DNA of 64,000 bases from Isosphaeraceae bacterium EP7 (lineage in GTDB: Bacteria > Planctomycetota > Planctomycetia > Isosphaerales > Isosphaeraceae). Under the pieces are notes generated by a model. That model was not told where the DNA came from. It did not search any database and saw only the letters and a program-made list of their open reading frames with translations. The DNA is taken from assembly GCA_038400315.1 (NCBI GenBank), contig CP151667.1, positions 3,483,174 to 3,547,173 of the forward strand. The letters are read 5' to 3'. The translations under genes were made by a program, and so were the position numbers. Shown here one piece after another: positions 7,009 through 18,559 of the stretch (position 1 is its first letter; each line of letters begins with the position of its first letter).

Positions 7009-9108
7009 ATGCCTTCCCGACCCATCAGACCGAGCCTGTCGATTGCGACGGCCGCCTGTCTCCTGATCGCCGGAGTCTCGACCTTGCAAGCCGATGAGGG
7101 GATGTGGACGTTCGATAACCTGCCCTTGAAGCACCTGAAAGACACCTACGGCTTCTCGCCCCCGCCCGGTTGGGTCGAGCACCTCAGGGGTGCGGCCCTC
7201 CGGTTCAACAACGGCGGGTCGGGCTCGTTCGTCTCGGCCGACGGCCTGGTGATGACCAATCATCACGTGGGCGCCGACACGCTCCAGAAGATCAGCACCG
7301 CCGAGAAGGACTATTACAAGATCGGCTTCCTGGCCAAGACCCAGGCCGACGAGGTGAAGGCCCCCGACCTGGAGCTGAACGTCCTGGTCGGCATCGAGGA
7401 CGTGACCGACAAGGTCAACGCGTTGGTCTCCAAGGACCTCGACGACGCCGCGGCCAACGTCGCCCGCCGCAAGGCCAAGGCCGAGATCGAGAAGGCCTCG
7501 CTCGACGCCACGGGCCTGCGCAGCGACGTCGTGACCCTGTACCAGGGGGGGAAGTACGCCCTCTACACCTACAAGAAGTACACCGACGTCCGGCTCGTCT
7601 TCGCCCCCGAGTTCGCCGCGGCCTTCTTCGGCGGCGACCCCGACAACTTCGAGTTCCCCCGCTGGTGCCTCGACGTCTGCTTCTTCCGGGCCTATGAGGA
7701 CGGCAAGCCCGCCAGGCCCAAGAACTTCCTGACCTGGAGCGCCGAGGGCTCGAAGGAAGGGGACCTGACGTTCGTCGCCGGCCACCCCGGACGCACCAGC
7801 CGCCTGTTCACCCTGGACAACCTGAAGTACCTGCGTGATACCGGCCTGCCGTTCGTCCTGGACATGCTCGGCGACCGCGAATCGTTCCTCCAGGAGTACT
7901 CGAAGCGCGGCCCCGAGCAGGCCAGGCAGGCCAAGGAAGACCTCTTCGGCTACCAGAACAGCCTGAAAGCCCGCCTCGGCGGCCAGAAGGGGCTCAATGA
8001 CACGGCCCTGATGGACCGCAAGGCCGCCGCCGAGACCGAGCTGCGATCGAAGATCGACGCCGACCCCGCCAAGAAGAAGGCCTATGCCGACGCCTGGCCC
8101 CGGATCGCCGACTCGCAGAAGGCCGCCGCGAGGATCCTGAAGCCGTACAACTTCCTGGAACGCGGCCTGGCCTTCGACTCGACCCTCTTCAGCATCGCGC
8201 GGACCCTCGCCAGGCTCACCGAGGAGAAGACCAAGCCCAACGCCGACCGGCTCCGCGAGTACGGCGAGGCCGGCCTCGCCTCGCTCGAGCAGGGGCTCTA
8301 TTCCGACGCCCCCATCTACCCCGAGTTCGAGACGGCCAAGCTCGGCCACTCGCTGGAGCACTGGGCGAAGGCCGTCGGCGCCGACGACCCGGTCGTCCGC
8401 AAGGTGCTCAAGGGACGCACCCCCGCCGAGGTGGCCAGGTCGCTCGTCGAGGGGACCAAGCTGGCCGACGTCGAGACCCGCAAGGAGTACGCCAAGCTGG
8501 GCGTGACCGCCGTCGCCCGCAGCGAAGACCCGATGATCCAGCTCGCCCTGGCCGTCGACCCCGAGGCCCGCGCCGTGCGCAAGCAGCGTGAGGACGAGGT
8601 CGAGGGGGTCGAGAGTGCCCAGTATGCCCTGATCGCCAGGGCGATCTTCGACGACAAGGGCGACTCAACCTACCCCGACGCCACGTTCACCCTCCGCCTG
8701 GCCTTCGGCACGGTCAAAGGGTACGAGGTCGACGGCAAGACGGTCCCCCCGTTCACCACCTTCGCCGGCGCCTTCCCCCACGCGGCGAAGCACGACAACG
8801 TGGACCCTTATGAGCTGCCCGCCTCGTGGCACAAGGCCAAGGATAGCGGGGCTTTGAAGCTCGACACGCCGCTGAACTTCGTCTCGACGGCCGACATCAT
8901 CGGCGGCAACTCGGGCAGCCCGGTGGTGAACCGGGACAACGAGGTGGTCGGCCTGATCTTCGACGGCAACATCCAGAGCCTGGTGCTCGACTATGCCTAC
9001 GATGACAAGGTCGCCCGGGCCGTCTCGGTCGACTCGAGGGCCATCGCCGAGGCCCTCCGCTCGATCTACTCCGCCGAGGCCCTCTTGAAGGAGCTGACCG
9101 GCAAGTAA
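7009..9108 (+). CDS. S46 family dipeptidyl-peptidase, DPP7-like
   Basis: The 699-residue exported serine peptidase has a signal peptide (1-28, cleavage near LQADEG) and the S46 layout. The catalytic triad can be placed as His86 (MTNHHVG), Asp222 (PRWCLD, after GGDPDNFEF) and Ser635 (IIGGNSGSP). In characterised S46 enzymes the residue 18 positions after the serine separates DPP7 (Gly) from DPP11 (Arg); here it is Gly653 in FDGN, so hydrophobic rather than acidic P1 residues are the more likely preference. AAGGAG precedes the start. Placed 54 bp behind an OPT transporter, it probably releases dipeptides in the periplasm; whether that transporter takes up its products is inference. Confidence 0.95.
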   Translation: MPSRPIRPSLSIATAACLLIAGVSTLQADEGMWTFDNLPLKHLKDTYGFSPPPGWVEHLRGAALRFNNGGSGSFVSADGLVMTNHHVGADTLQKISTAEKDYYKIGFLAKTQADEVKAPDLELNVLVGIEDVTDKVNALVSKDLDDAAANVARRKAKAEIEKASLDATGLRSDVVTLYQGGKYALYTYKKYTDVRLVFAPEFAAAFFGGDPDNFEFPRWCLDVCFFRAYEDGKPARPKNFLTWSAEGSKEGDLTFVAGHPGRTSRLFTLDNLKYLRDTGLPFVLDMLGDRESFLQEYSKRGPEQARQAKEDLFGYQNSLKARLGGQKGLNDTALMDRKAAAETELRSKIDADPAKKKAYADAWPRIADSQKAAARILKPYNFLERGLAFDSTLFSIARTLARLTEEKTKPNADRLREYGEAGLASLEQGLYSDAPIYPEFETAKLGHSLEHWAKAVGADDPVVRKVLKGRTPAEVARSLVEGTKLADVETRKEYAKLGVTAVARSEDPMIQLALAVDPEARAVRKQREDEVEGVESAQYALIARAIFDDKGDSTYPDATFTLRLAFGTVKGYEVDGKTVPPFTTFAGAFPHAAKHDNVDPYELPASWHKAKDSGALKLDTPLNFVSTADIIGGNSGSPVVNRDNEVVGLIFDGNIQSLVLDYAYDDKVARAVSVDSRAIAEALRSIYSAEALLKELTGK

Positions 9109-9142
9109 TACGAATCTTGGCCCCGGCCTGATCCGAAGAAAT

Positions 9143-9183
9143 CGCCCCGCGACTCGCCCCGCCTTCGGGGGGGTCGCGGGGCG
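9143..9183. terminator. Hairpin between convergent S46 and DUF1559 genes
   Basis: A perfect 11-bp inverted repeat (CGCCCCGCGAC and GTCGCGGGGCG) with a 19-nt loop that can pair further (CCCC with GGGG). It lies 35 bp after the S46 stop and 47 bp after the end of the convergent DUF1559 gene, so it could end both transcripts. There is no clear T tract. Confidence 0.6.
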
Positions 9184-9229
9184 TCCCGTTGCGCGGGCAT
9201 TGCGGTCCCAGCCGGTCGCCCCGATGGGC

Positions 9230-10264
9230 TCAGTAGCTGTCGGCGCCGATGATCTCGCCGCCCATGCGAGTCGACAACTTCTGGTAGATTCCCCCCGATT
9301 CTTCCGTCCCCGTATTATTGCCGTACGAGTCGTAAATCATGCCGATCGGGTCACAATTACCCTCAGGGCCGGCGATCGGCCAACTCTCGATCGATTCCTT
9401 GATGAAGCGGACCGAGCCGTCGCAGAAACCATAATTCACGCCGCCGGGGTGCATACTCGACGCCGGCTCGATGGGGATGCGCCAGCAGCCCATGTTGATG
9501 AACTCCGCCAGCTTGCGGTGGGCGTTGGGCATGTACAGGGTCGACATCCCCTGGTGCGGCCAGAAGGTGGAGTTCCACCAGCGAGGGCCCCACTGGGAGG
9601 CCAGCGTCTGCGCATCGAAGATGGCCATCGCCCGCTCTCCGAAGAGGAACGTGTTGCTCAGGCCGTCGCCGATCTCGGCGATCCGGACCGGTCTCTTCGG
9701 CAAGATCGTCCCGTTGGCGAGGTTGACTTCGGCCGCGAATATGGGAGACCACGGGGCGTTGTAGACGACCCAGGTGCCCATATTGCCGGCATAGCTGGTG
9801 TACTGCTGCCTCAGGCCCGGGGCGGCCGCCTGCCCCTGATAGACCGGGTCCAGGGCCATGGACTTGCTGACGACGGAGTCGCTGGGGCACCAGAGGGCCG
9901 AAACGCCGATGCCGGCGACCGTCTCATTGCCCACGGCGAAGAAGGCGAGGCTCTGGTTGTAAGCGTTGTAAGCCGGGGCCTGCTCGTAGTAGGGGAGCAG
10001 CCGCACGAAGACGCTGGCGCCGAGATTGTCGCTCGTCAGGCCCGGGCCGCCGCCGGTCGAGTTAGCCATCGGGAGTGAGCCGGTCGCCGCCTCGTAGCTC
10101 AACGCGGCCAGTCCGAGCTGCTTCAGATTATTGATGCATTGCATTCGCCTGGCGGCCTCGCGGGCGCTCTGCACGGCGGGCAGCAGCAGGGCGACCAGGA
10201 CCGCGATGATGGAGATGACGACGAGCAGCTCGATCAGCGTGAAGCCACCTCGTTGTTTGGTCAT
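9230..10264 (-). CDS. DUF1559 pseudopilin-like protein with H-x9-DG motif
   Basis: The 344-residue product starts [20 protein letters not shown], a type IV prepilin leader: prepilin peptidase would cleave before Phe, and the hydrophobic helix would anchor the protein. A DUF1559 body follows, with the C-terminal motif HPGGVNYGFCDG (His, nine residues, Asp-Gly). The frame is open to 10525, but everything before ATG 10264 is basic and non-hydrophobic and the leader must be N-terminal, so the start is secure. A small lipoprotein gene ends 113 bp upstream on the same strand. These proteins are hugely expanded in Planctomycetota; they are presumed surface or secretion-system pseudopilins with unknown individual roles. 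Confidence 0.95.
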   Translation of the reverse strand: MTKQRGGFTLIELLVVISIIAVLVALLLPAVQSAREAARRMQCINNLKQLGLAALSYEAATGSLPMANSTGGGPGLTSDNLGASVFVRLLPYYEQAPAYNAYNQSLAFFAVGNETVAGIGVSALWCPSDSVVSKSMALDPVYQGQAAAPGLRQQYTSYAGNMGTWVVYNAPWSPIFAAEVNLANGTILPKRPVRIAEIGDGLSNTFLFGERAMAIFDAQTLASQWGPRWWNSTFWPHQGMSTLYMPNAHRKLAEFINMGCWRIPIEPASSMHPGGVNYGFCDGSVRFIKESIESWPIAGPEGNCDPIGMIYDSYGNNTGTEESGGIYQKLSTRMGGEIIGADSY

Positions 10265-10377
10265 AATATCGCTCGCGAAGCGGATGAAGTGGGATCGAGA
10301 GGATCTTGGCTGATGGAGCCGCCCCCAGCAATTGGGCGTCGAGACTGGATCAAAACCGCCGGACCGGGCCTGCGGCG

Positions 10378-10620
10378 TCAGCGTGAGGGCCGCTTCGGCT
10401 TCGGGGCGACGCCGATCGAGCCGCTGAACTTCGCCGCCTTCACTGCCAGTTTGGGATTCTGCGCTTCGGCCTCCTGGGCTGCGATCAGATTGACCGTGCC
10501 CTCGTCGCCGGCCGTGCCGCTGCAACCTTGCCAGGTGAGTAGGCTCAGGGAGCCGGCCAGGCTCAGCAAGCCAATCGAGTCACGAATCCACCTCGTCCCT
10601 GTTTCAAGTCGACCATCCAT
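10378..10620 (-). CDS. Small putative lipoprotein upstream of DUF1559 gene
   Basis: The 80-residue product has a basic N-terminus, a hydrophobic stretch and a lipobox-like LTWQGC, followed by about 50 residues ending in a basic tail (PKPKRPSR). ATG 10620 is preferred, with AAGG 6-9 nt upstream; a GTG at 10653 is in frame but has no ribosome site and overlaps a promoter-like pair (TTGACT, 18-nt spacer, TATTAA on the minus strand, 10637-10666). It is co-directional with the DUF1559 gene. A similar lipoprotein/DUF1559 pair occurs at 31582-32978. No function is known. Confidence 0.65.
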   Translation of the reverse strand: MDGRLETGTRWIRDSIGLLSLAGSLSLLTWQGCSGTAGDEGTVNLIAAQEAEAQNPKLAVKAAKFSGSIGVAPKPKRPSR

Positions 10621-11165: not shown

Positions 11166-11693
11166 TCAGGCCTGCGGGGTCGACTTGGCGGGGGCCTGCG
11201 GGGCCGGGGCGACCTTGCTGGGGGCGACGGGCGCCGGGGCGACCTTCGAGGGGGCCTGGGGAGCAGCGTAGGCGGGGGCCTGCGGGGCCGGGGTCACCTT
11301 GCTGGGGGCGACGGGCGCCGGGGCGACCTTCGAGGGGGCCTGGGGAGCAGCGTAGGCCGGGGCCTGGGGGGCCGGGGTCACCTTGCTGGGGGCGACGGGC
11401 GCCGGGGCGACCTTCGAGGGGGCCTGGGGAGCAGCGTAGGCCGGGGCGACGGGCGCCGGGGCGACCTTCGAGGGAGCCTGGGGAGCAGCGTAGGCGGGGG
11501 CCTGCGGGGCCGGGGTCACCTTGCTGGGGGCGACGGGCGCCGGGGCGACCTTCGAGGGGGCCTGGGGAGCAGCGTAGGCCGGGGCCTGGGGGGCCGGGGT
11601 CACCTTGCTGGGGGCCTGGGGCGACTGGGCCTGGGCCGAGGTGGCCAAGGCGGCGAGGGCGAGGCTGGTTCCGAACACGCCACGAATCGTCAT
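11166..11693 (-). CDS. Exported Pro/Ala-rich tandem-repeat protein
   Basis: The 175-residue product has a signal peptide (MTIRGVFGTSLALAALATSA, cleavage near AQAQ) and is otherwise built from 28-residue units of Ala, Pro, Lys, Ser, Val, Tyr and Gln, alternating SKVTPAPQAP and AYAAPQAPSKVAPAPVAP. Full units are at 29-56, 57-84, 103-130 and 131-158; residues 85-102 are an 18-residue unit lacking the first ten residues. The final 17 residues are a degenerate partial unit. There is no globular domain. An extended, possibly wall- or polyanion-binding periplasmic rod is plausible from the Lys-Pro-Ala composition. A much longer frame running upstream to 15296 on this strand is antisense to the TPR gene and was rejected. 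Confidence 0.8.
   Translation of the reverse strand: MTIRGVFGTSLALAALATSAQAQSPQAPSKVTPAPQAPAYAAPQAPSKVAPAPVAPSKVTPAPQAPAYAAPQAPSKVAPAPVAPAYAAPQAPSKVAPAPVAPSKVTPAPQAPAYAAPQAPSKVAPAPVAPSKVTPAPQAPAYAAPQAPSKVAPAPVAPSKVAPAPQAPAKSTPQA
11220..11609 (-). repeat. 84-bp in-frame tandem repeats with one 54-bp unit
   Basis: Four nearly identical 84-bp copies plus one 54-bp copy (missing 30 bp) encode the 28- and 18-residue units of the Pro/Ala protein. Spacings of the shared GAGCAGCGTA core are 84, 84, 54 and 84 bp. DNA identity is high, including synonymous sites, which points to recent slippage or recombination. Confidence 0.95.
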
Positions 11694-12098
11694 CGTTGCA
11701 GTCTCCAAAGCGGAAATGAGGAGCGTCGGACGACCGATAGCCGGAAGAGCCGGCGACATGCCGACCGGAATCGGTTGAGTTAGTCTGGAAATAGGATAGC
11801 TGGGCATTTCGGGAAGTCTAGCGGAATTTCGTTGGTTCTGCCAACTTTGTGGGTCCGGAAGTCTGGCGTGCCTTTGGCTCTTCTCGGGTCCAGGGTCAAC
11901 AATTCCGATGCCGGAGCCGCATTGTTCCGGGCAGGCAGGCCGATGGAATGCAAGCAGAGTGCGATTCGCGGCTTGAGCCGGCCGAGGAACTGCGGTTATA
12001 ACGGCCTGGGGCGGAGAGGCAAGAAGCCGGGGATGCCCGAGGGACCGACCGCGACGCGACGTGCCCGCCCGGCGACGTCGAGGGGAAGGAGACCGCCC
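11694..12098. promoter_or_regulatory. Divergent intergenic region
   Basis: About 405 bp separate the divergent Pro/Ala repeat gene (minus) and the TPR gene (plus). The part at 11770-11900 is less GC-rich and should hold promoters for both. The TPR frame stays open back to 11832, but this stretch codes for no signal peptide or repeat and has no ribosome site. No operator is recognised. Confidence 0.4.
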
Positions 12099-15000
12099 GT
12101 GCGCCCCGTAGAGCATCCTCCCAATCTCATCAGGCCAACTCTGGTCATGGCCGGGGCCTTCCTCGCCTGCTTCGCGGGATGGGCCGCCCGCGGCCAGGAG
12201 CCGCCCAAGTCTAGGACAGGTTCGGCGACCGCACCATCCGAGGGCCAGGCCCCGAGGCGGGCGGTGCCCGAGGGCCTGAACTTCGCCAACGGCCTGTTCC
12301 GCGACCGCCGCTACGACATGGCGGCCGACGAGTATGAGCGGTTCCTGGCCGATGCCAAGGGCCCAGACGCGGTCGAGGCCCGCTACGGCCTGGCCAATGC
12401 CCGGCTCTTCCAGGGCAAATACGCCGAGGCCCGCGCCCAGTTCGAGGCCTTCCTGAAGGAGGCGCCCGAGCACCCCAACGCCGCGACGGCCCGCTATCGG
12501 GTGGGCGAGACCTCCTACATGGTGGGTGACCTGCCCGCCTCGAGGGCGGCGCTCGAGGCCTACACGGCCGGCTCGCCGGGGCACCGCCACCTCGACATGG
12601 CCTGGACTTATCTCGGCGATGTCGACTACCGGATGGGCGACTACCCCGAGGCCCAGAAGGCGTACAAGCGGGCCCTGGCCGACTTCCCCGAGAACCGGCT
12701 CGCCGACCGTGCACGCTTCGGGCTGGCCCGGTCGCTGGCCGCCCTGAAGCAGACCGACGAGGCGCTCGACGTCCTGGCCGGGCTGGCCAAGATGGGGGGG
12801 GCCGACTGGTCGGACAAGGCCCGGTTCGAGTCCGGCAAGCTGCTCGCGACCGCCGGCCGCCATCCCGAGGCCGTCGAGGCCCTGGCCGCGCTCGAGGCCG
12901 CCAGCCCCAAGAGCCCGCTGCTGGCCGAGGCCAGGCTCAGGCGAGCCGAGGCGCTCTCCAAGTTGAAGAAGCCGGGCGAGGCCGAGGCGTTGCTCGCCCC
13001 CATCGCCGCCGACCCCGCCCAGCCGCTCTCCGGGCAGGCCGCCTACGCCCTGGGGATGGTCCAGGCCGAGCAGGGGCAGGCCGCGGAGGCGCTGGCCACC
13101 TTCGACGCCGCACTGAAGACCCCCGCCGGCGCAACGCTGAAGACGGCCTTGCTCTATGGCTCGGCCGAGGCCGCCTTGAGGCTGGAGAAGCTGCCCGAGG
13201 CCCGCGACCGGATGCTGAAGGCTTATGAGGCCGACCCCGCCGACCCCTGGGCCGACGACGCCCTGGCGAGGGCCGCCACGCTGGCCCTGGACGCCCGCGA
13301 CCACGCCGAGGCCACCCGCCTGGCCGAGCTGTTCGCCAAGTCGTTCCCGCAGAGCCCCTTGCGCAATGACGTGACGCTGGTTGAGGCCCGCGCCAGGCTG
13401 GCCGACCACGACCCCAAGCGGGCCATCGCCCTGCTGGAGCGGATCCGCGACGAGGCCAAGCCCGAGGGGGCCGACGGCGACGCTGCGCGTTACTACCTGG
13501 GCCTGGCCTATCGGGCCGACGGCCAGGTTGCTCTCGCCGACGAGCTGTTCGCCGCACTGGCCAAGGCCCCCGCGACCCCGACCGCGGTCGACGCCCAGTA
13601 CCTTCTGGGACAAGGACATATGGAAGCCGGCCGGTTCGACAAGGCGGTCGAGCCCTTGAAGGTCTACCTGGCTGGCCGGCCAGACGGAGACGTGGCCGAC
13701 TTCGCCCTGGCCCACCTGGCCCATGCCCACCTGGAGCTGGGCGACGGCACCGAGGCCAGGGCCGACCTGGATGCCCTCGCGGCCCGGTTCCCGGCGAGCA
13801 CGGCGCTTCCCACGACCAGGCTCAGGCTGGCCGAGTGGGCCCTGGCCCGCAAGCAGCTCGACCCCGCGATCGAGCAGTTCCGCCTGGTGTCCAAGGCCGG
13901 CGACCCCAAGCTCGTGGCCCGCGCGGCCTCGGGCCTGGGCCACGCCCTGATGCAGTCGGGCAAGCCCGCCGAGGCGGCCGACGCCTTCGCCGAAGCCCTG
14001 GCCACCAAGCCCGAAGCCCCGCTGGCTGGCGAGATCGCCCTGGCCCGCGCACGGGCCCTGGAAGCCGCCGGAAAAGTCGATGACGCTGTCGCGGCCTATG
14101 ACGCCGCCCGCGAAGGGGTTCCGGCAAGCGCGACCGGCCCGGCCGTCCTGGCCAAGGCTCGCCTGCTGGCCGACTCGAAGCGTCCCGCCGAGGCCGCCGA
14201 AGCCTATGCCGCATGGCTGACCGACCACCCCCAGGGGGCCGACGGAGCCACGGTGGACGACGTGCTGGCCGACCTGGGCTGGGCGCTGGGAGACGCGGGT
14301 AAGGTGGGCGAGTCCGATGCGGCCTTCGCACGGCTCCTGGAGCACGCACCCGCCGGCCCGAGGTCGGCCGATGCCCGGGTGAATCTGGCCGAAACCGCCT
14401 TCAAGGCCAAGGATTACGGCCGGGTCAAGGAGCTGCTTGACCCGGTGGTGGCCGAGGACGCCAAGGTGCCCGAAGGGCTGCTCCAGACGGCCCTCTACCG
14501 GATGGGCAGGACCCTGGCCGCGACGAAGGACTGGCCGGGGGCATCGAAGGCGCTGGATCGGCTGATCGAGGCCAAGGGCGAGACCCCCTACCTCCGCGAA
14601 GCCCGGTTCTGGCGGGCCGAGGTCGCCTTCCAGGCGGGCGACAACGCCGCGGCCGAGGCCCGATTCAAGGAGCTTGCCGCCGAGCCGCCGTCGCCGGCCG
14701 ACCCCCCCGGCCTGATCGAAGGGGCAGGATGCCGTCGGGTCCAGGCCCTGGTGCTGCTCGGCCGCTGGAAGGACGCCCTCGAGGCCGCCGATGCCTGGAA
14801 GCTGGCCCACACGTCGGATCCGAGGACGCCCGAGGTCGATTACGCCCGGGGGCGTTCGCTGCTCGGCCTGGCCCGATTCGACGACTCGAGGGCCGCGTTC
14901 CAGGCGGTCATCAAGGCCCGCGAGAAGAGCGAACTGGCCGCGCGGGCGCAGTTGATGCAGGGCGAGACCTACTTCCATCAGAAGGACTATCACAATGCCT

Positions 15001-15242
15001 TGCGCGAGTTCCTGAAGGTTCATTACCTTTACAATGCTCCGGATTGGCAGGCCTCGGGGCTCCTGGAGGCGGGAAAAGTCTACGAAGAACTCGCCCGCTG
15101 GGCGGAAGCCGCCGAAACCTATGAGAGGCTTCGTTCGGAATTCCCCACGTCTTCCGTCGCCGAAGAGGCCGGGACCCGCCTGGAGGCGGCCCGCGTGCGA
15201 TCCGCCGGCCGCCCTGGTCCGGCCGATTCGCGGAGCCGCTGA
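12099..15242 (+). CDS. Large exported tetratricopeptide-repeat protein
   Basis: The chosen start is GTG 12099, with GGAAGGAGA ending 6 nt upstream; it puts a hydrophobic export signal (LVMAGAFLACFAGWAARGQ) near the N-terminus of a 1047-residue product. ATG 12033 is an alternative. After a short linker the whole protein is helical TPR-like repeats rich in Ala and Glu (for example FANGLFRDRRYDMAADEYE, ARYRVGETSYMVGDLPASRA, FWRAEVAFQAGDNAAAEARF), of the YbgF/BamD-like periplasmic kind. It is followed 77 bp later by an ExbB/TolQ-like gene and then the TonB-like toroid protein, so it may be the periplasmic scaffold of that complex. Comparable TPR proteins accompany Tol-Pal systems (CpoB), which supports an envelope role by analogy only. 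Confidence 0.88.
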   Translation: MRPVEHPPNLIRPTLVMAGAFLACFAGWAARGQEPPKSRTGSATAPSEGQAPRRAVPEGLNFANGLFRDRRYDMAADEYERFLADAKGPDAVEARYGLANARLFQGKYAEARAQFEAFLKEAPEHPNAATARYRVGETSYMVGDLPASRAALEAYTAGSPGHRHLDMAWTYLGDVDYRMGDYPEAQKAYKRALADFPENRLADRARFGLARSLAALKQTDEALDVLAGLAKMGGADWSDKARFESGKLLATAGRHPEAVEALAALEAASPKSPLLAEARLRRAEALSKLKKPGEAEALLAPIAADPAQPLSGQAAYALGMVQAEQGQAAEALATFDAALKTPAGATLKTALLYGSAEAALRLEKLPEARDRMLKAYEADPADPWADDALARAATLALDARDHAEATRLAELFAKSFPQSPLRNDVTLVEARARLADHDPKRAIALLERIRDEAKPEGADGDAARYYLGLAYRADGQVALADELFAALAKAPATPTAVDAQYLLGQGHMEAGRFDKAVEPLKVYLAGRPDGDVADFALAHLAHAHLELGDGTEARADLDALAARFPASTALPTTRLRLAEWALARKQLDPAIEQFRLVSKAGDPKLVARAASGLGHALMQSGKPAEAADAFAEALATKPEAPLAGEIALARARALEAAGKVDDAVAAYDAAREGVPASATGPAVLAKARLLADSKRPAEAAEAYAAWLTDHPQGADGATVDDVLADLGWALGDAGKVGESDAAFARLLEHAPAGPRSADARVNLAETAFKAKDYGRVKELLDPVVAEDAKVPEGLLQTALYRMGRTLAATKDWPGASKALDRLIEAKGETPYLREARFWRAEVAFQAGDNAAAEARFKELAAEPPSPADPPGLIEGAGCRRVQALVLLGRWKDALEAADAWKLAHTSDPRTPEVDYARGRSLLGLARFDDSRAAFQAVIKAREKSELAARAQLMQGETYFHQKDYHNALREFLKVHYLYNAPDWQASGLLEAGKVYEELARWAEAAETYERLRSEFPTSSVAEEAGTRLEAARVRSAGRPGPADSRSR

Positions 15243-15319
15243 CGGCCCCTGGCCCGCGTACGTCCCACGTTCTGGACGCATGTCTTGCGCTCCCATCTGG
15301 TTGGGAAGGACCCCATCCC

Positions 15320-16192
15320 ATGTATCGGACGAGAATGAAGGGCGGCATGCTGGCCTTCGCCGTCATCCTGGTTGTCGCTGGTTCGGGCTCTCCGGCCCTG
15401 GCCGACGCCCCGGCCGAGAACCCGACGGTCGAGCTGCTGAACCGCAAGGCCGGTCAAATCGTCAGCCGTGGCCTGGACTGGTATCGCAGGACCCCCGCGG
15501 CCGACCGGGTCACCTGGGCCGGGCTGGGTGCCTCGGCGTTCCTGGGCCTGATGGTCCTGGCCGAGCGATCCGTGAGGCTCCGGAAGCGGCGGATCGCGCC
15601 GGCCGATTTCATGACCCGGTTCCTGGATCGGCTGCGGGACGGTAAGCTCGACCGAGGCAAGGCGCTGGACCTCTGCGAGCTGAACACCAGCCCGGCCGCG
15701 CGGATCGCCCTCTCGGCCGTGCGCCGCTGGGGCAGGCCGGTGGCCGATCTGGAGCGTGCGGTGGCGATCTCGGCGAAGGTCGAGTCCGACCGCCTGCGGC
15801 GCAACGTCGGCACGCTTCGGCGGGTCGCGGCGCTCTCGCCGCTGATCGGGCTGCTGGGGACGCTCCTGACGGCCGGGCGGGTCCTGGCCGAGCAAGGCCT
15901 GGTGGCCACCTCGCTGGGGCAGTCGCTGATCGCCCTGACCGTGGGTGTTGGGCTGTCCATCGTGGCCTTGGTGGCGTATGACGGCCTGGTCGGCAAAGTC
16001 GAGGCCCTGGCCAACACCCTGGATCGGTTCGGGGCGGAAGTCGCCGATGCGATCGCCATGACGGTCCCCGCGGCCGAGGTCAGGGCAGGGCAGGGACGAC
16101 GCGGGCCGGCCCGCACGCCCCACCAGGTCCGGATCGAGATGCCGGAGTCGATGCGTGCGTCCAAGCGAGACCGGGAGATCGAGCTGGATTGA
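15320..16192 (+). CDS. MotA/TolQ/ExbB proton-channel family protein
   Basis: The 290-residue product begins with a signal-peptide-like segment (cleavage near ALADA), then a membrane helix (about 62-81), a cytoplasmic helical loop of about 90 residues, and two closing helices. The second helix carries SPLIGLLGTL, matching the ExbB/TolQ motif APLLGLLGT, and the third has LIALTVGVGLSIVALVA, where the threonine matches the conserved TolQ/ExbB channel threonine. The C-terminus is basic. AAGGA precedes ATG 15320. In known systems this pentamer works with ExbD/TolR, which supplies the proton-binding Asp; no such gene is adjacent here. The next gene, 51 bp away, encodes a TonB-like N-terminus. Confidence 0.9.
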   Translation: MYRTRMKGGMLAFAVILVVAGSGSPALADAPAENPTVELLNRKAGQIVSRGLDWYRRTPAADRVTWAGLGASAFLGLMVLAERSVRLRKRRIAPADFMTRFLDRLRDGKLDRGKALDLCELNTSPAARIALSAVRRWGRPVADLERAVAISAKVESDRLRRNVGTLRRVAALSPLIGLLGTLLTAGRVLAEQGLVATSLGQSLIALTVGVGLSIVALVAYDGLVGKVEALANTLDRFGAEVADAIAMTVPAAEVRAGQGRRGPARTPHQVRIEMPESMRASKRDREIELD

Positions 16193-16243
16193 CCGGCCGA
16201 CCGGGCGGATCGGGGGCCTTGCTTTGACGCCGAAGGTGCTGCG

Positions 16244-18559
16244 ATGACCGGCCTGGACCTCGAGTCGTTCCTCCACCTGTTGCGGGCCGACCTGGGCGCC
16301 TGGGCCGCGCTCGGAGCGGCCGCGCTCGCGCTGGCGGCCATCGCCTGGACGACCTGGGGCTCGCGCAAGGCCCTGCGGAAATGCCTCGTCCTGTCGGTCG
16401 CGGCGCATGTCGGGCTCCTGATCTTCGGCGGGACGCTGCCGGCCAACGGGCCGGGCGGGGGACTGGTCCAGGCGGTCGGGGCCTCGGGCCTGGTCGATTC
16501 CGCCCGGGTCCGCGTCCGGCCCGTGTTCGAAGGGGCGGGCGACGGCCAAGGGGGCGAGACTCAGGCGGGCGGGAAGGGACCGGGCGGAGGCGGCGGTCCC
16601 GCGTTCGACCGGCCTTCCGAGTCGATCGCCCTGGCCGATGCCCCGGTGCCGCTGGCCCGGCCCGAACGGTCCCCGAGCCAGCCGGCCCCCGTCGCCCCGG
16701 CCCCGTCGAGCCTGCCCGCAGCCTCGGCGGCCCCCGAGGTCGACAGCCCGGCCCCTTCGGCCAGCCCCGAGGACAGGCCGGTGGCCCTGGCCGCATCCGA
16801 GGCGGCCCCCGACAGGGCGGCACCCGCCGATGTCTCGGAGATCGCCCAGGCCGAGCCGGCCCCGTCGGCGGCCGAGGTCTCGCCCCCGGGGGCGGCGGAT
16901 ATCGCCCTGCCCGGCGACGCGGGCGGAACGATCCGCGCCGGGATCCGGCCCAGGCGCCCCTCGGGCGTGGCAGGCGTCCCGGCACCGGCCGCACCGCTGG
17001 CCGAGGCCAGTCCCGAGCGGCTCCCCTCTCCCCACGGGCCGGCCCCGGCCTTGACCGCCCCGATGCCCCGATCCGAGCCGTCTGGGCCCGAGGCGACCAC
17101 GTCGGCCTCGGTCGGGCCGACCGAGGCTGCGGCGGCCGAGGAACTGCCCGCCCTGGAGAAGCCCGAGGCGGCCGTCGCGGCGGCCCCCGTGCTGAGCCTC
17201 CCCGAGCCCGACCTGCGCCGGCCCGAGCGGCCCGTGGCCGGCGTGGCCGGCACGCCGGAGGCCCCCGCGATGGGGCCGATCGCCGTGGCGAGGGCCACGC
17301 CCTCGGGGGCGACGACGGCCAGGACGGGCCTCGGCCCGAGATCCATGCCCGTGCCCGATGTTTATCGGTCGAGGCTGGACCCCAACCGGTCGACCCTGGC
17401 CCGGCGGGCGGGGGCCAGCGTGGCCAGCGAGCAGGCCGTCGAGCGCGGCCTCGACTGGCTCAAGCGGCATCAGGACGCCGACGGCCGATGGGACGGCGGC
17501 ACCGCCCGCGACCTGGAGAACAACGTCATCCGCGGCCAGTCCGACTTCACCAAGCACTGCCCGGCCGGCGAGATCTGCTTCGGCGAGTGCCGCTACTACG
17601 ACGCCGACACCGCCCTGACTGGCCTGGCCCTGCTGGCCTACCTGGGGGCCGGATACACGCACGCCGATGGGAAGTACGCCGAGGTCGTGGGCAACGGGGT
17701 CGACTTCCTCCTGAAGTCGCAGGCCGCCAGCGGAGACCTGCGGGGAGAGAGCCGGGCGGTGGGGATGTACTGTCACGCGATGGCCTCCCTGGCGTTGTGC
17801 GAGGCCTATGCCCTGACGGGCGACGAGCGGCTGCGTGATCCGGTGGAGCGTGCGGTCGGCTTCCTGGTCAAGGGGCAGGCGAAGGACGGGATGGCCTGGC
17901 GGTATGAGCCCGGGGCCCCGTCGGGCGACACGAGCATTTTGGGCTGGGTGATCCTGGTGTTGAAGTCGGCCCGGGTGGTCGGAATCCCCGTCCCGCAGGC
18001 GGCCCGGACGGGCTCGGTGGCCTGGCTGTCGAAGGTTTCCTCCGGCAAGAACGGCGGACTGGCGCGGTATCAGCCGGCCAAGCCGGTGACCCCGACGATG
18101 ACCGCCGAGGCCTGGGTCTGCCGCCAGTTCCTGGGCATCGGCGGCCCAGGCCTGGCCAGCACCGAGGCGTCGAACCACCTGCTGACGAACGGCCCCCCCG
18201 CCAAGGCCTTCAACATCTATTACTGGTACTACGGCACCCTGGCCATGTATCAGCAAGGGGGCCAGGCCTGGGCCCGCTGGAACGTCCAGGTGCGCGACGG
18301 CCTGGTCGCCCGCCAGCGCAACTCGGGCCACCAATCGGGGAGCTGGGACCCCGACGAGAGCGAGTACGGCCCTTATGGCGGTCGGATCTACACGACAGCA
18401 CTCGCCACCCTGACCCTCGAAGTCTACTACCGCTTCCTCCGGCTCTACGAGGCCCCCGAAGTCGCCCCCGCCGACCCCCCCATCCGCCGCGCCGGCGTCC
18501 CTCCCCAGCCCATCATCTCCAAGCCGGCGGCCGGGCCGAGGCCCGCCGCAACTCGCTGA
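16244..18559 (+). CDS. TonB-like membrane anchor fused to prenyltransferase/squalene-cyclase-type toroid
   Basis: The 771-residue product has three parts. Residues 17-38 and 47-63 are membrane helices joined by a short basic loop; the second contains LSVAAHVGLLIF, with Ser51 and His55 spaced as in the TonB/TolA S-x3-H motif that contacts ExbB/TolQ. Residues about 66-390 are a low-complexity Pro/Ala/Glu/Ser linker long enough to cross the periplasm. Residues about 390-740 form an alpha/alpha toroid repeat domain: VERGLDWLKRHQDADGRWDG, YDADTALTGLALLAYLGAG and further DG-W motifs resembling the QW repeats of squalene-hopene cyclases and prenyltransferases. No DxDD catalytic motif is evident, so it may bind rather than cyclise a ligand. 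GAAGGTG precedes ATG 16244. It sits 51 bp behind the ExbB-like gene. Confidence 0.85.
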   Translation: MTGLDLESFLHLLRADLGAWAALGAAALALAAIAWTTWGSRKALRKCLVLSVAAHVGLLIFGGTLPANGPGGGLVQAVGASGLVDSARVRVRPVFEGAGDGQGGETQAGGKGPGGGGGPAFDRPSESIALADAPVPLARPERSPSQPAPVAPAPSSLPAASAAPEVDSPAPSASPEDRPVALAASEAAPDRAAPADVSEIAQAEPAPSAAEVSPPGAADIALPGDAGGTIRAGIRPRRPSGVAGVPAPAAPLAEASPERLPSPHGPAPALTAPMPRSEPSGPEATTSASVGPTEAAAAEELPALEKPEAAVAAAPVLSLPEPDLRRPERPVAGVAGTPEAPAMGPIAVARATPSGATTARTGLGPRSMPVPDVYRSRLDPNRSTLARRAGASVASEQAVERGLDWLKRHQDADGRWDGGTARDLENNVIRGQSDFTKHCPAGEICFGECRYYDADTALTGLALLAYLGAGYTHADGKYAEVVGNGVDFLLKSQAASGDLRGESRAVGMYCHAMASLALCEAYALTGDERLRDPVERAVGFLVKGQAKDGMAWRYEPGAPSGDTSILGWVILVLKSARVVGIPVPQAARTGSVAWLSKVSSGKNGGLARYQPAKPVTPTMTAEAWVCRQFLGIGGPGLASTEASNHLLTNGPPAKAFNIYYWYYGTLAMYQQGGQAWARWNVQVRDGLVARQRNSGHQSGSWDPDESEYGPYGGRIYTTALATLTLEVYYRFLRLYEAPEVAPADPPIRRAGVPPQPIISKPAAGPRPAATR

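Follow-up and report, generated by a model that had tools for sequence, protein, structure and literature searches.

Three neighbouring genes in a planctomycete, Isosphaeraceae bacterium EP7, raise the question of whether a domain that looks like a squalene-hopene cyclase may serve as the tip of a proton-driven, TonB-like transducer and, if so, which motor would drive it. The window, by which we mean the whole stretch of 64,000 nucleotides that was analysed, lies on contig C1 of this 7.2 Mb genome (G000). The genes run in the same direction with intergenic gaps of 77 and 51 bp, and their coordinates agree with those of a first-pass annotation made from the sequence alone:

12099..15242, + strand: gene 1, exported TPR protein, 1047 aa (PF13432, 1.9e-61; orthologues)
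15320..16192, + strand: gene 2, ExbB/TolQ-like protein, 290 aa, motor residues degraded (PF01618, model, residue tallies)
16244..18559, + strand: gene 3, putative TonB-like transducer with a toroid tip, 771 aa (sequence, synteny)

Gene 1 starts with GTG, with AAGGAG about 8 nt upstream, and its earlier description as an exported TPR protein holds on the strength of its PF13432 match and of the signal-peptide-like N-termini of its relatives, among which lipobox-like motifs are rare (7/70). Its orthologues precede ExbB in Isosphaeraceae and in many other planctomycetes. Upstream of the TPR gene the window has tandem repeats in 84-bp units (11166-11719), the minus strand of which encodes a secreted-looking Pro/Ala repeat (APQAPSKVAPAPVAP) protein, and a Peptidase S46 gene (7009-9108) and, at 9230-10525, a DUF1559 protein whose N-terminus bears a methylation motif are also found just upstream.

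A TonB-Like Helix and Linker in Gene 3

The N-terminal part of gene 3 and its globular end are divided as follows:

16301..16357, + strand: first membrane helix, residues ~20-38 (sequence, alignment A2)
16379..16429, + strand: second membrane helix with S51-x3-H55, residues ~46-62 (alignment A2)
16433..17353, + strand: Pro/Ala-rich linker, ~307 residues (sequence)
17354..18448, + strand: toroid domain, residues ~371-735 (alignment A1, model, squalene-hopene cyclase match)

A short positively charged turn, SRKALRK, separates the two helices, and the second one (LSVAAHVGLL) carries Ser51 and His55, which can be read from the sequence as first claimed, together with the Pro/Ala linker. Among relatives this linker varies in length and sequence, and Ser51 is the sole invariant column of alignment A2, one row of which (L044) is in the wrong frame. 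Gene 3 therefore combines a membrane helix bearing S-x3-H, a Pro-rich linker and a globular tip, and a Pfam scan of the protein found no TonB C-terminal domain (PF03544). In cryo-EM structures from E. coli, the Ser and His of TonB contact Ser34/Trp38 of ExbB and their counterparts in TolA contact Ser28/Trp32 of TolQ; these contact residues connect to a conserved motor Pro, which in ExbB sits in the third helix (PMC12215075).

The first-pass annotation had made its proposal depend on the conservation of S-x3-H among homologues, and conserved it is: the motif occurs in a hydrophobic stretch in 121/126 of the toroid proteins with at least 150 aa upstream, four of the five exceptions being cut by contig ends and one having Ala in place of Ser. 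When only distinct proteins are counted, 94/95 carry the motif in the membrane helix that precedes the linker, whereas shuffled segments contain it in 7.4% of cases. With the helix located independently of the motif, S-x3-H fell inside the last predicted hydrophobic segment in 81/95, and in 13 of the remaining 14 proteins inspection of the list placed it in an earlier, true helix, because the linker or a later stretch had been called as a segment. Conservation is confined to S and H; as for the rest of the full S-H-L-S motif, the Leu is present in 17/81 and the second Ser in 6/81.

The Toroid Domain

The C-terminal toroid that had been claimed for gene 3 was borne out by an AlphaFold2 model, for which an alignment of 24 sequences served as input. 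The model has an (α/α)6 fold (pLDDT 86.7, pTM 0.88), its best PDB match is squalene-hopene cyclase (Z 26.9, rmsd 3.2 over 287 residues), and squalene-hopene and class II terpene cyclases are matched at Z 22-27, although GH76 mannanases and sugar epimerases are matched as well (Z ~22-23). The sequence profile of the domain also matches squalene-hopene cyclase (7e-11), and we regard the predicted toroid fold as well supported. What gene 3 shares with squalene-hopene and class II terpene cyclases is the (alpha/alpha)6 toroid with QW-like repeats, whereas it differs from them in that a TonB-like anchor holds it at the membrane and that the toroid sequence has no DxDD catalytic motif. Because of this missing motif, a terpene cyclase enzyme was ruled out as its primary role; among the listed relatives, DxDD was found within a GSWDPDD loop. 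Enzymatic activity of the toroid is not indicated.

Other toroid proteins were seen along the way. The genome of the window holds toroid paralogues without a membrane helix (L070, L071) and a second toroid protein with a single TonB-like helix, SWGTSLALH (L069, G000:C1:5917700-5935000, ORF 7893-9725 on the minus strand), which has no ExbB nearby and similar paralogues in other Isosphaeraceae. In toroid proteins of the Phycisphaerales type (L130:6953-11722 and L160:6785-11032), a beta-propeller of PD40 repeats, the kind found in the TolB propeller, precedes both membrane helices, and the former protein also bears a C-terminal carboxypeptidase-regulatory-like domain (PF13620).

Gene Sets Across Planctomycetes

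To place the locus in the phylum, 80 named loci beyond Isosphaeraceae were taken from a collection with one genome per species, and the 45 non-Isosphaeraceae toroid loci that had 1.5 kb or more of upstream sequence were counted. TPR, ExbB and ExbD genes stand before the toroid gene in 31/45, and the other 14 consist of seven loci with ExbD only, two with ExbB and ExbD, one with TPR and ExbB and four with none of them; ExbD as such adjoins the toroid gene in 40/45. Within Isosphaeraceae, TPR-ExbB-toroid synteny was seen in about 20 genomes, where contigs allow, and the local ExbB is found in most of the sufficiently complete genomes. In seven genomes of family f2 ExbD lies directly upstream of the toroid gene, and in four of these (G042, G058, G050, G052) TPR-ExbB forms a separate locus; the gene set therefore stays together in genomes despite splitting. 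A phylum-wide scan at E 1e-100 gave 14/118 genomes, a threshold too strict for distant classes.

The neighbourhood survey that had been proposed at first pass thus found ExbB, ExbD and TPR genes associated with toroid homologues, and judged from gene order we take the TPR/ExbB/toroid association to be a system, not chance. Since 31/45 loci have all four genes and S-x3-H is kept in 121/126 proteins, the prediction of a toroid-tipped transducer powered by protons has good support in Planctomycetota. Fold model, motif and neighbours also agree with the earlier notion of the toroid as the tip of an architecture of the TonB/TolA type.

Degraded Motor Residues in the Local ExbB

Which motor would act on gene 3 is a separate matter. 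Gene 2 belongs to the MotA/TolQ/ExbB family as annotated (PF01618, 7e-12, 45.6 bits against a cut-off of 22.9), and its model matches TolQ in TolAQR (Z 15.8), with the ExbB-like fold intact. Alignment to TolQ singles out two sites:

15860..15862, + strand: codon of Thr181 (equivalent to TolQ T145)
15935..15940, + strand: codons of Leu206-Thr207

At the T145 position, Thr181 is kept in the window, Ser is found in about half of the relatives, and Thr or Ser is present in 27/29 local ExbBs of Isosphaeraceae. The third-helix Thr of the first-pass annotation turned out to be one residue off, as TolQ T178, the third-helix pore Thr, aligns with Leu206, and the Thr that had been noticed is Thr207. For TolQ S28, T178 and P187 the residue is kept in 1/29, 0/29 and 0/29 local Isosphaeraceae ExbBs, although these counts come from related sequences, so that a single ancestral loss may have been scored repeatedly; the corresponding tallies for toroid-system ExbBs of other planctomycetes are 42/42, 42/42 and 42/42. 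Leu, Val, Phe, Ser, Cys and Ile all occur in place of T178 in the local Isosphaeraceae proteins, a variety which suggests relaxed constraint.

No ExbD was found at the toroid loci of Isosphaeraceae, the window locus included. The earlier remark that none is adjacent is therefore true of the window but describes a peculiarity of Isosphaeraceae and not of the system, given its frequency elsewhere. An ExbD overlooked in a gap was considered and rejected, since a profile search of ORFs of at least 40 aa at these loci was negative; seven ExbD matches lie elsewhere in the genome. In G006 and G015 the TPR gene adjoins the toroid gene, no ExbB was found between them, ExbB2 (described below) is the only one in the genome, and the toroid proteins retain S-x3-H. 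Isosphaeraceae loci without ExbB between TPR and toroid are L093, L106, L169 and L170, of which L106 and L093 were equated with the organisms of G006 and G015 by identical toroid genes. The idea that the neighbouring ExbB is the driver, with which the first-pass annotation had begun, is not supported: pore Thr, docking Ser and Pro are lost, a local ExbD is missing, and so is the gene itself in some genomes with TPR and toroid. That said, the local ExbB of Isosphaeraceae probably still has some role, because it adjoins TPR in most of them.

ExbB2-ExbD as the Likelier Motor

A second ExbB, here ExbB2, is present in 33/37 Isosphaeraceae genomes searched, the four without it being 68-81% complete. 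In the genome of the window ExbB2-ExbD lies at about 5,143,055-5,144,501 of C1, followed by a DedA gene that ends near 5,145,235 (L068). ExbD stands beside ExbB2 in all 22 loci examined (20 plus L068 and L074), and most of these ExbDs have a clear TPM-V-D proton-site motif. ExbB2 keeps the residues of TolQ S28, T178 and P187 in 22/22, 22/22 and 0/22, and there is no Trp at the position of TolQ W32, neither in ExbB2 nor in the toroid-system ExbBs. Because ExbB2 is without the Pro of the P187 position and the Trp of the W32 position, the known contact network is partly kept.

A first ExbB tree was unrooted and gave no direction. We used a smaller set with the window genome's other ExbBs as outgroup, in which ExbB2 groups with the local ExbB and with the ExbBs of toroid systems, apart from those others (96/92), and ExbB2 is sister to the local ExbB, weakly (75/91). 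The ExbD linked to ExbB2 scores 138.6 bits against the profile of toroid-locus ExbDs, compared with 63.9 for the next of the genome's ExbDs. From these residues and this kinship, ExbB2-ExbD appears a likelier motor for gene 3 than the local ExbB. Counter to this model, ExbB2 could in truth serve a second toroid paralogue with S-x3-H.

A gene with a VTT domain (DedA-type) follows ExbB2-ExbD in 20/22 Isosphaeraceae loci (for L068, G000:C1:5135300-5152000, ORFs ~7756-9936). DedA proteins include undecaprenyl-phosphate flippases (PMC10127716, PMC12893004), and motor and lipid carrier may for this reason be linked.

Proposed Mechanism

The reading that we favour, with moderate confidence, is that gene 3 is a proton-motive-force transducer driven in trans by ExbB2-ExbD, the local ExbB being a diverged accessory or a decaying duplicate. 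It builds on gene content, synteny, motif conservation, residue losses and motor kinship, and from these we infer docking, force generation, the drive in trans and the pull on a partner as follows. The S-x3-H helix (S51/H55) would dock on an ExbB pentamer at its outer face, and the Pro-rich linker would span the periplasm and carry the pull to the toroid, which would replace the C-terminal domain of TonB or TolA and hold a partner; the exported TPR protein would be a periplasmic co-factor that aids this hold. In most planctomycetes examined, the genes for the presumed motor, ExbB and ExbD, belong to the toroid locus itself. In Isosphaeraceae, including the organism of the window, the motor would act from elsewhere, with proton flow through ExbB2-ExbD driving the toroid protein. 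The simplest account is a duplication after which the moved copy, ExbB2, went on serving as the motor and the one at the old site decayed, so that the local ExbB would be a duplicate that has diverged, has ceased to conduct protons in the known manner and is an accessory or is being lost. A wider statement, that toroid-tipped transducers form a class found widely among Planctomycetota, some of them bearing a TolB-like propeller in the same polypeptide, and that one family duplicated the motor, with the copy at the ancestral locus becoming a non-conducting accessory and the relocated ExbB2-ExbD beside DedA taking over in trans, strikes us as evenly balanced.

Alternative Explanations

As to purpose, the system may be a planctomycete counterpart of Tol-Pal, with the toroid holding on to a protein of the outer membrane or one linked to peptidoglycan and the motor drawing the envelope inward, for instance during division. 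This proposal is compatible with ExbB2 acting in trans, and in its specific form we hold it only tentatively. It would account for a TPR partner (compare CpoB in Tol-Pal), although TPRs are generic, and for the PD40 propeller, of TolB type, fused in the Phycisphaerales versions, although neither a Pal nor a TolB gene was seen in the loci. The genome of the window fits in that the TonB_C family (PF03544) is absent from all of it, the TolB_N family has no match and there is a single OmpA-domain protein, which may or may not be Pal. Because of the Phycisphaerales propeller and the lack of TonB_C and TolB_N in this genome, a Tol-like envelope role in the broad sense seems the most likely function of the toroid system.

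With regard to the motor, the local ExbB itself might be the docking platform, be it with an ExbD in trans, passively as a scaffold that conducts no protons, or by joining ExbB2 in a mixed pentamer. Its synteny with TPR and toroid in most Isosphaeraceae, its intact TolQ-like fold and the Thr or Ser retained at the T145 position speak for such a part, but with the pore Thr and third-helix Pro kept in none of 29 proteins and the transducer-contact Ser in one, and with the gene missing from G006 and G015 despite TPR and toroid, we consider it rather unlikely.

The first-pass annotation had proposed that the toroid is a binding domain for a lipid or isoprenoid (a hopanoid or polyprenyl carrier) which the motor moves or extracts. 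Squalene-hopene and class II terpene cyclases are the top matches to the fold, a squalene-hopene cyclase is matched by the profile, and a DedA-type gene, of the group that includes undecaprenyl-phosphate flippases, follows ExbB2-ExbD; however, mannanases and epimerases share the fold, DxDD is absent here and sits in the GSWDPDD loop of the listed relatives, and DedA adjoins the motor and not the toroid. We find this proposal quite improbable in that form; a DedA gene beside the motor and a fold resembling terpene cyclases would be compatible with a lipid-carrier role more broadly. A periplasmic enzyme or binding protein of toroid fold, anchored in the membrane but not coupled to energy, with ExbB genes close by for some other reason, would suit the helix-less paralogues (L070, L071) and the degraded local motor of Isosphaeraceae, but is very hard to reconcile with a nearly invariant S-x3-H and with ExbD/ExbB adjacency that recurs across planctomycete families.

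Relation to Known Systems

For the favoured model of a toroid-tipped transducer driven by ExbB2-ExbD, the nearest published system is that of the vWA-tipped force transducers of PVC bacteria, encoded alongside genes for TPR and TolQ-like proteins and two tolR-like genes (Mol Biol Evol 2025, PMC12204202). These likewise have a TonB-like helix with an S-H motif, a disordered Pro-rich linker and a non-TonB tip, and their gene lies downstream of TPR, tolQ-like and tolR-like genes; they differ in that the tip is vWA, where gene 3 has a toroid, and in having two tolR-like genes instead of one. That paper makes no mention of toroids or squalene-cyclase-like domains (PMC12204202). With TolA-TolQ-TolR the system shares the TolQ-like fold of gene 2, the S-x3-H helix, a TPR protein in the locus and, in the Phycisphaerales variant, a PD40 propeller, whereas gene 3 has no visible TolA C-terminal domain and an extra membrane helix before the S-x3-H helix, the local TolQ of Isosphaeraceae is degraded, a local TolR is lacking and the window genome has no TolB_N family. 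With TonB-ExbB-ExbD it shares the S-x3-H helix, the Pro-rich linker and, in the loci of relatives, the motor genes, but the tip is a toroid instead of TonB_C. No description of a toroid-tipped transducer was found in the largely open-access journal literature that was searched.

Implications

Planctomycetes have unusual envelopes, and many are without FtsZ. As the genome of the window has neither TonB_C nor TolB_N, the system bears on how energy reaches the outer envelope of these bacteria, and the toroid would be the second non-TonB tip, after vWA, among the few predicted motor-driven transducers. Isosphaeraceae offer a natural experiment in which motor and transducer are uncoupled at the gene level, and the question of envelope energy in planctomycetes becomes testable through a system that is widespread, consists of four defined genes and offers a single candidate histidine for docking.
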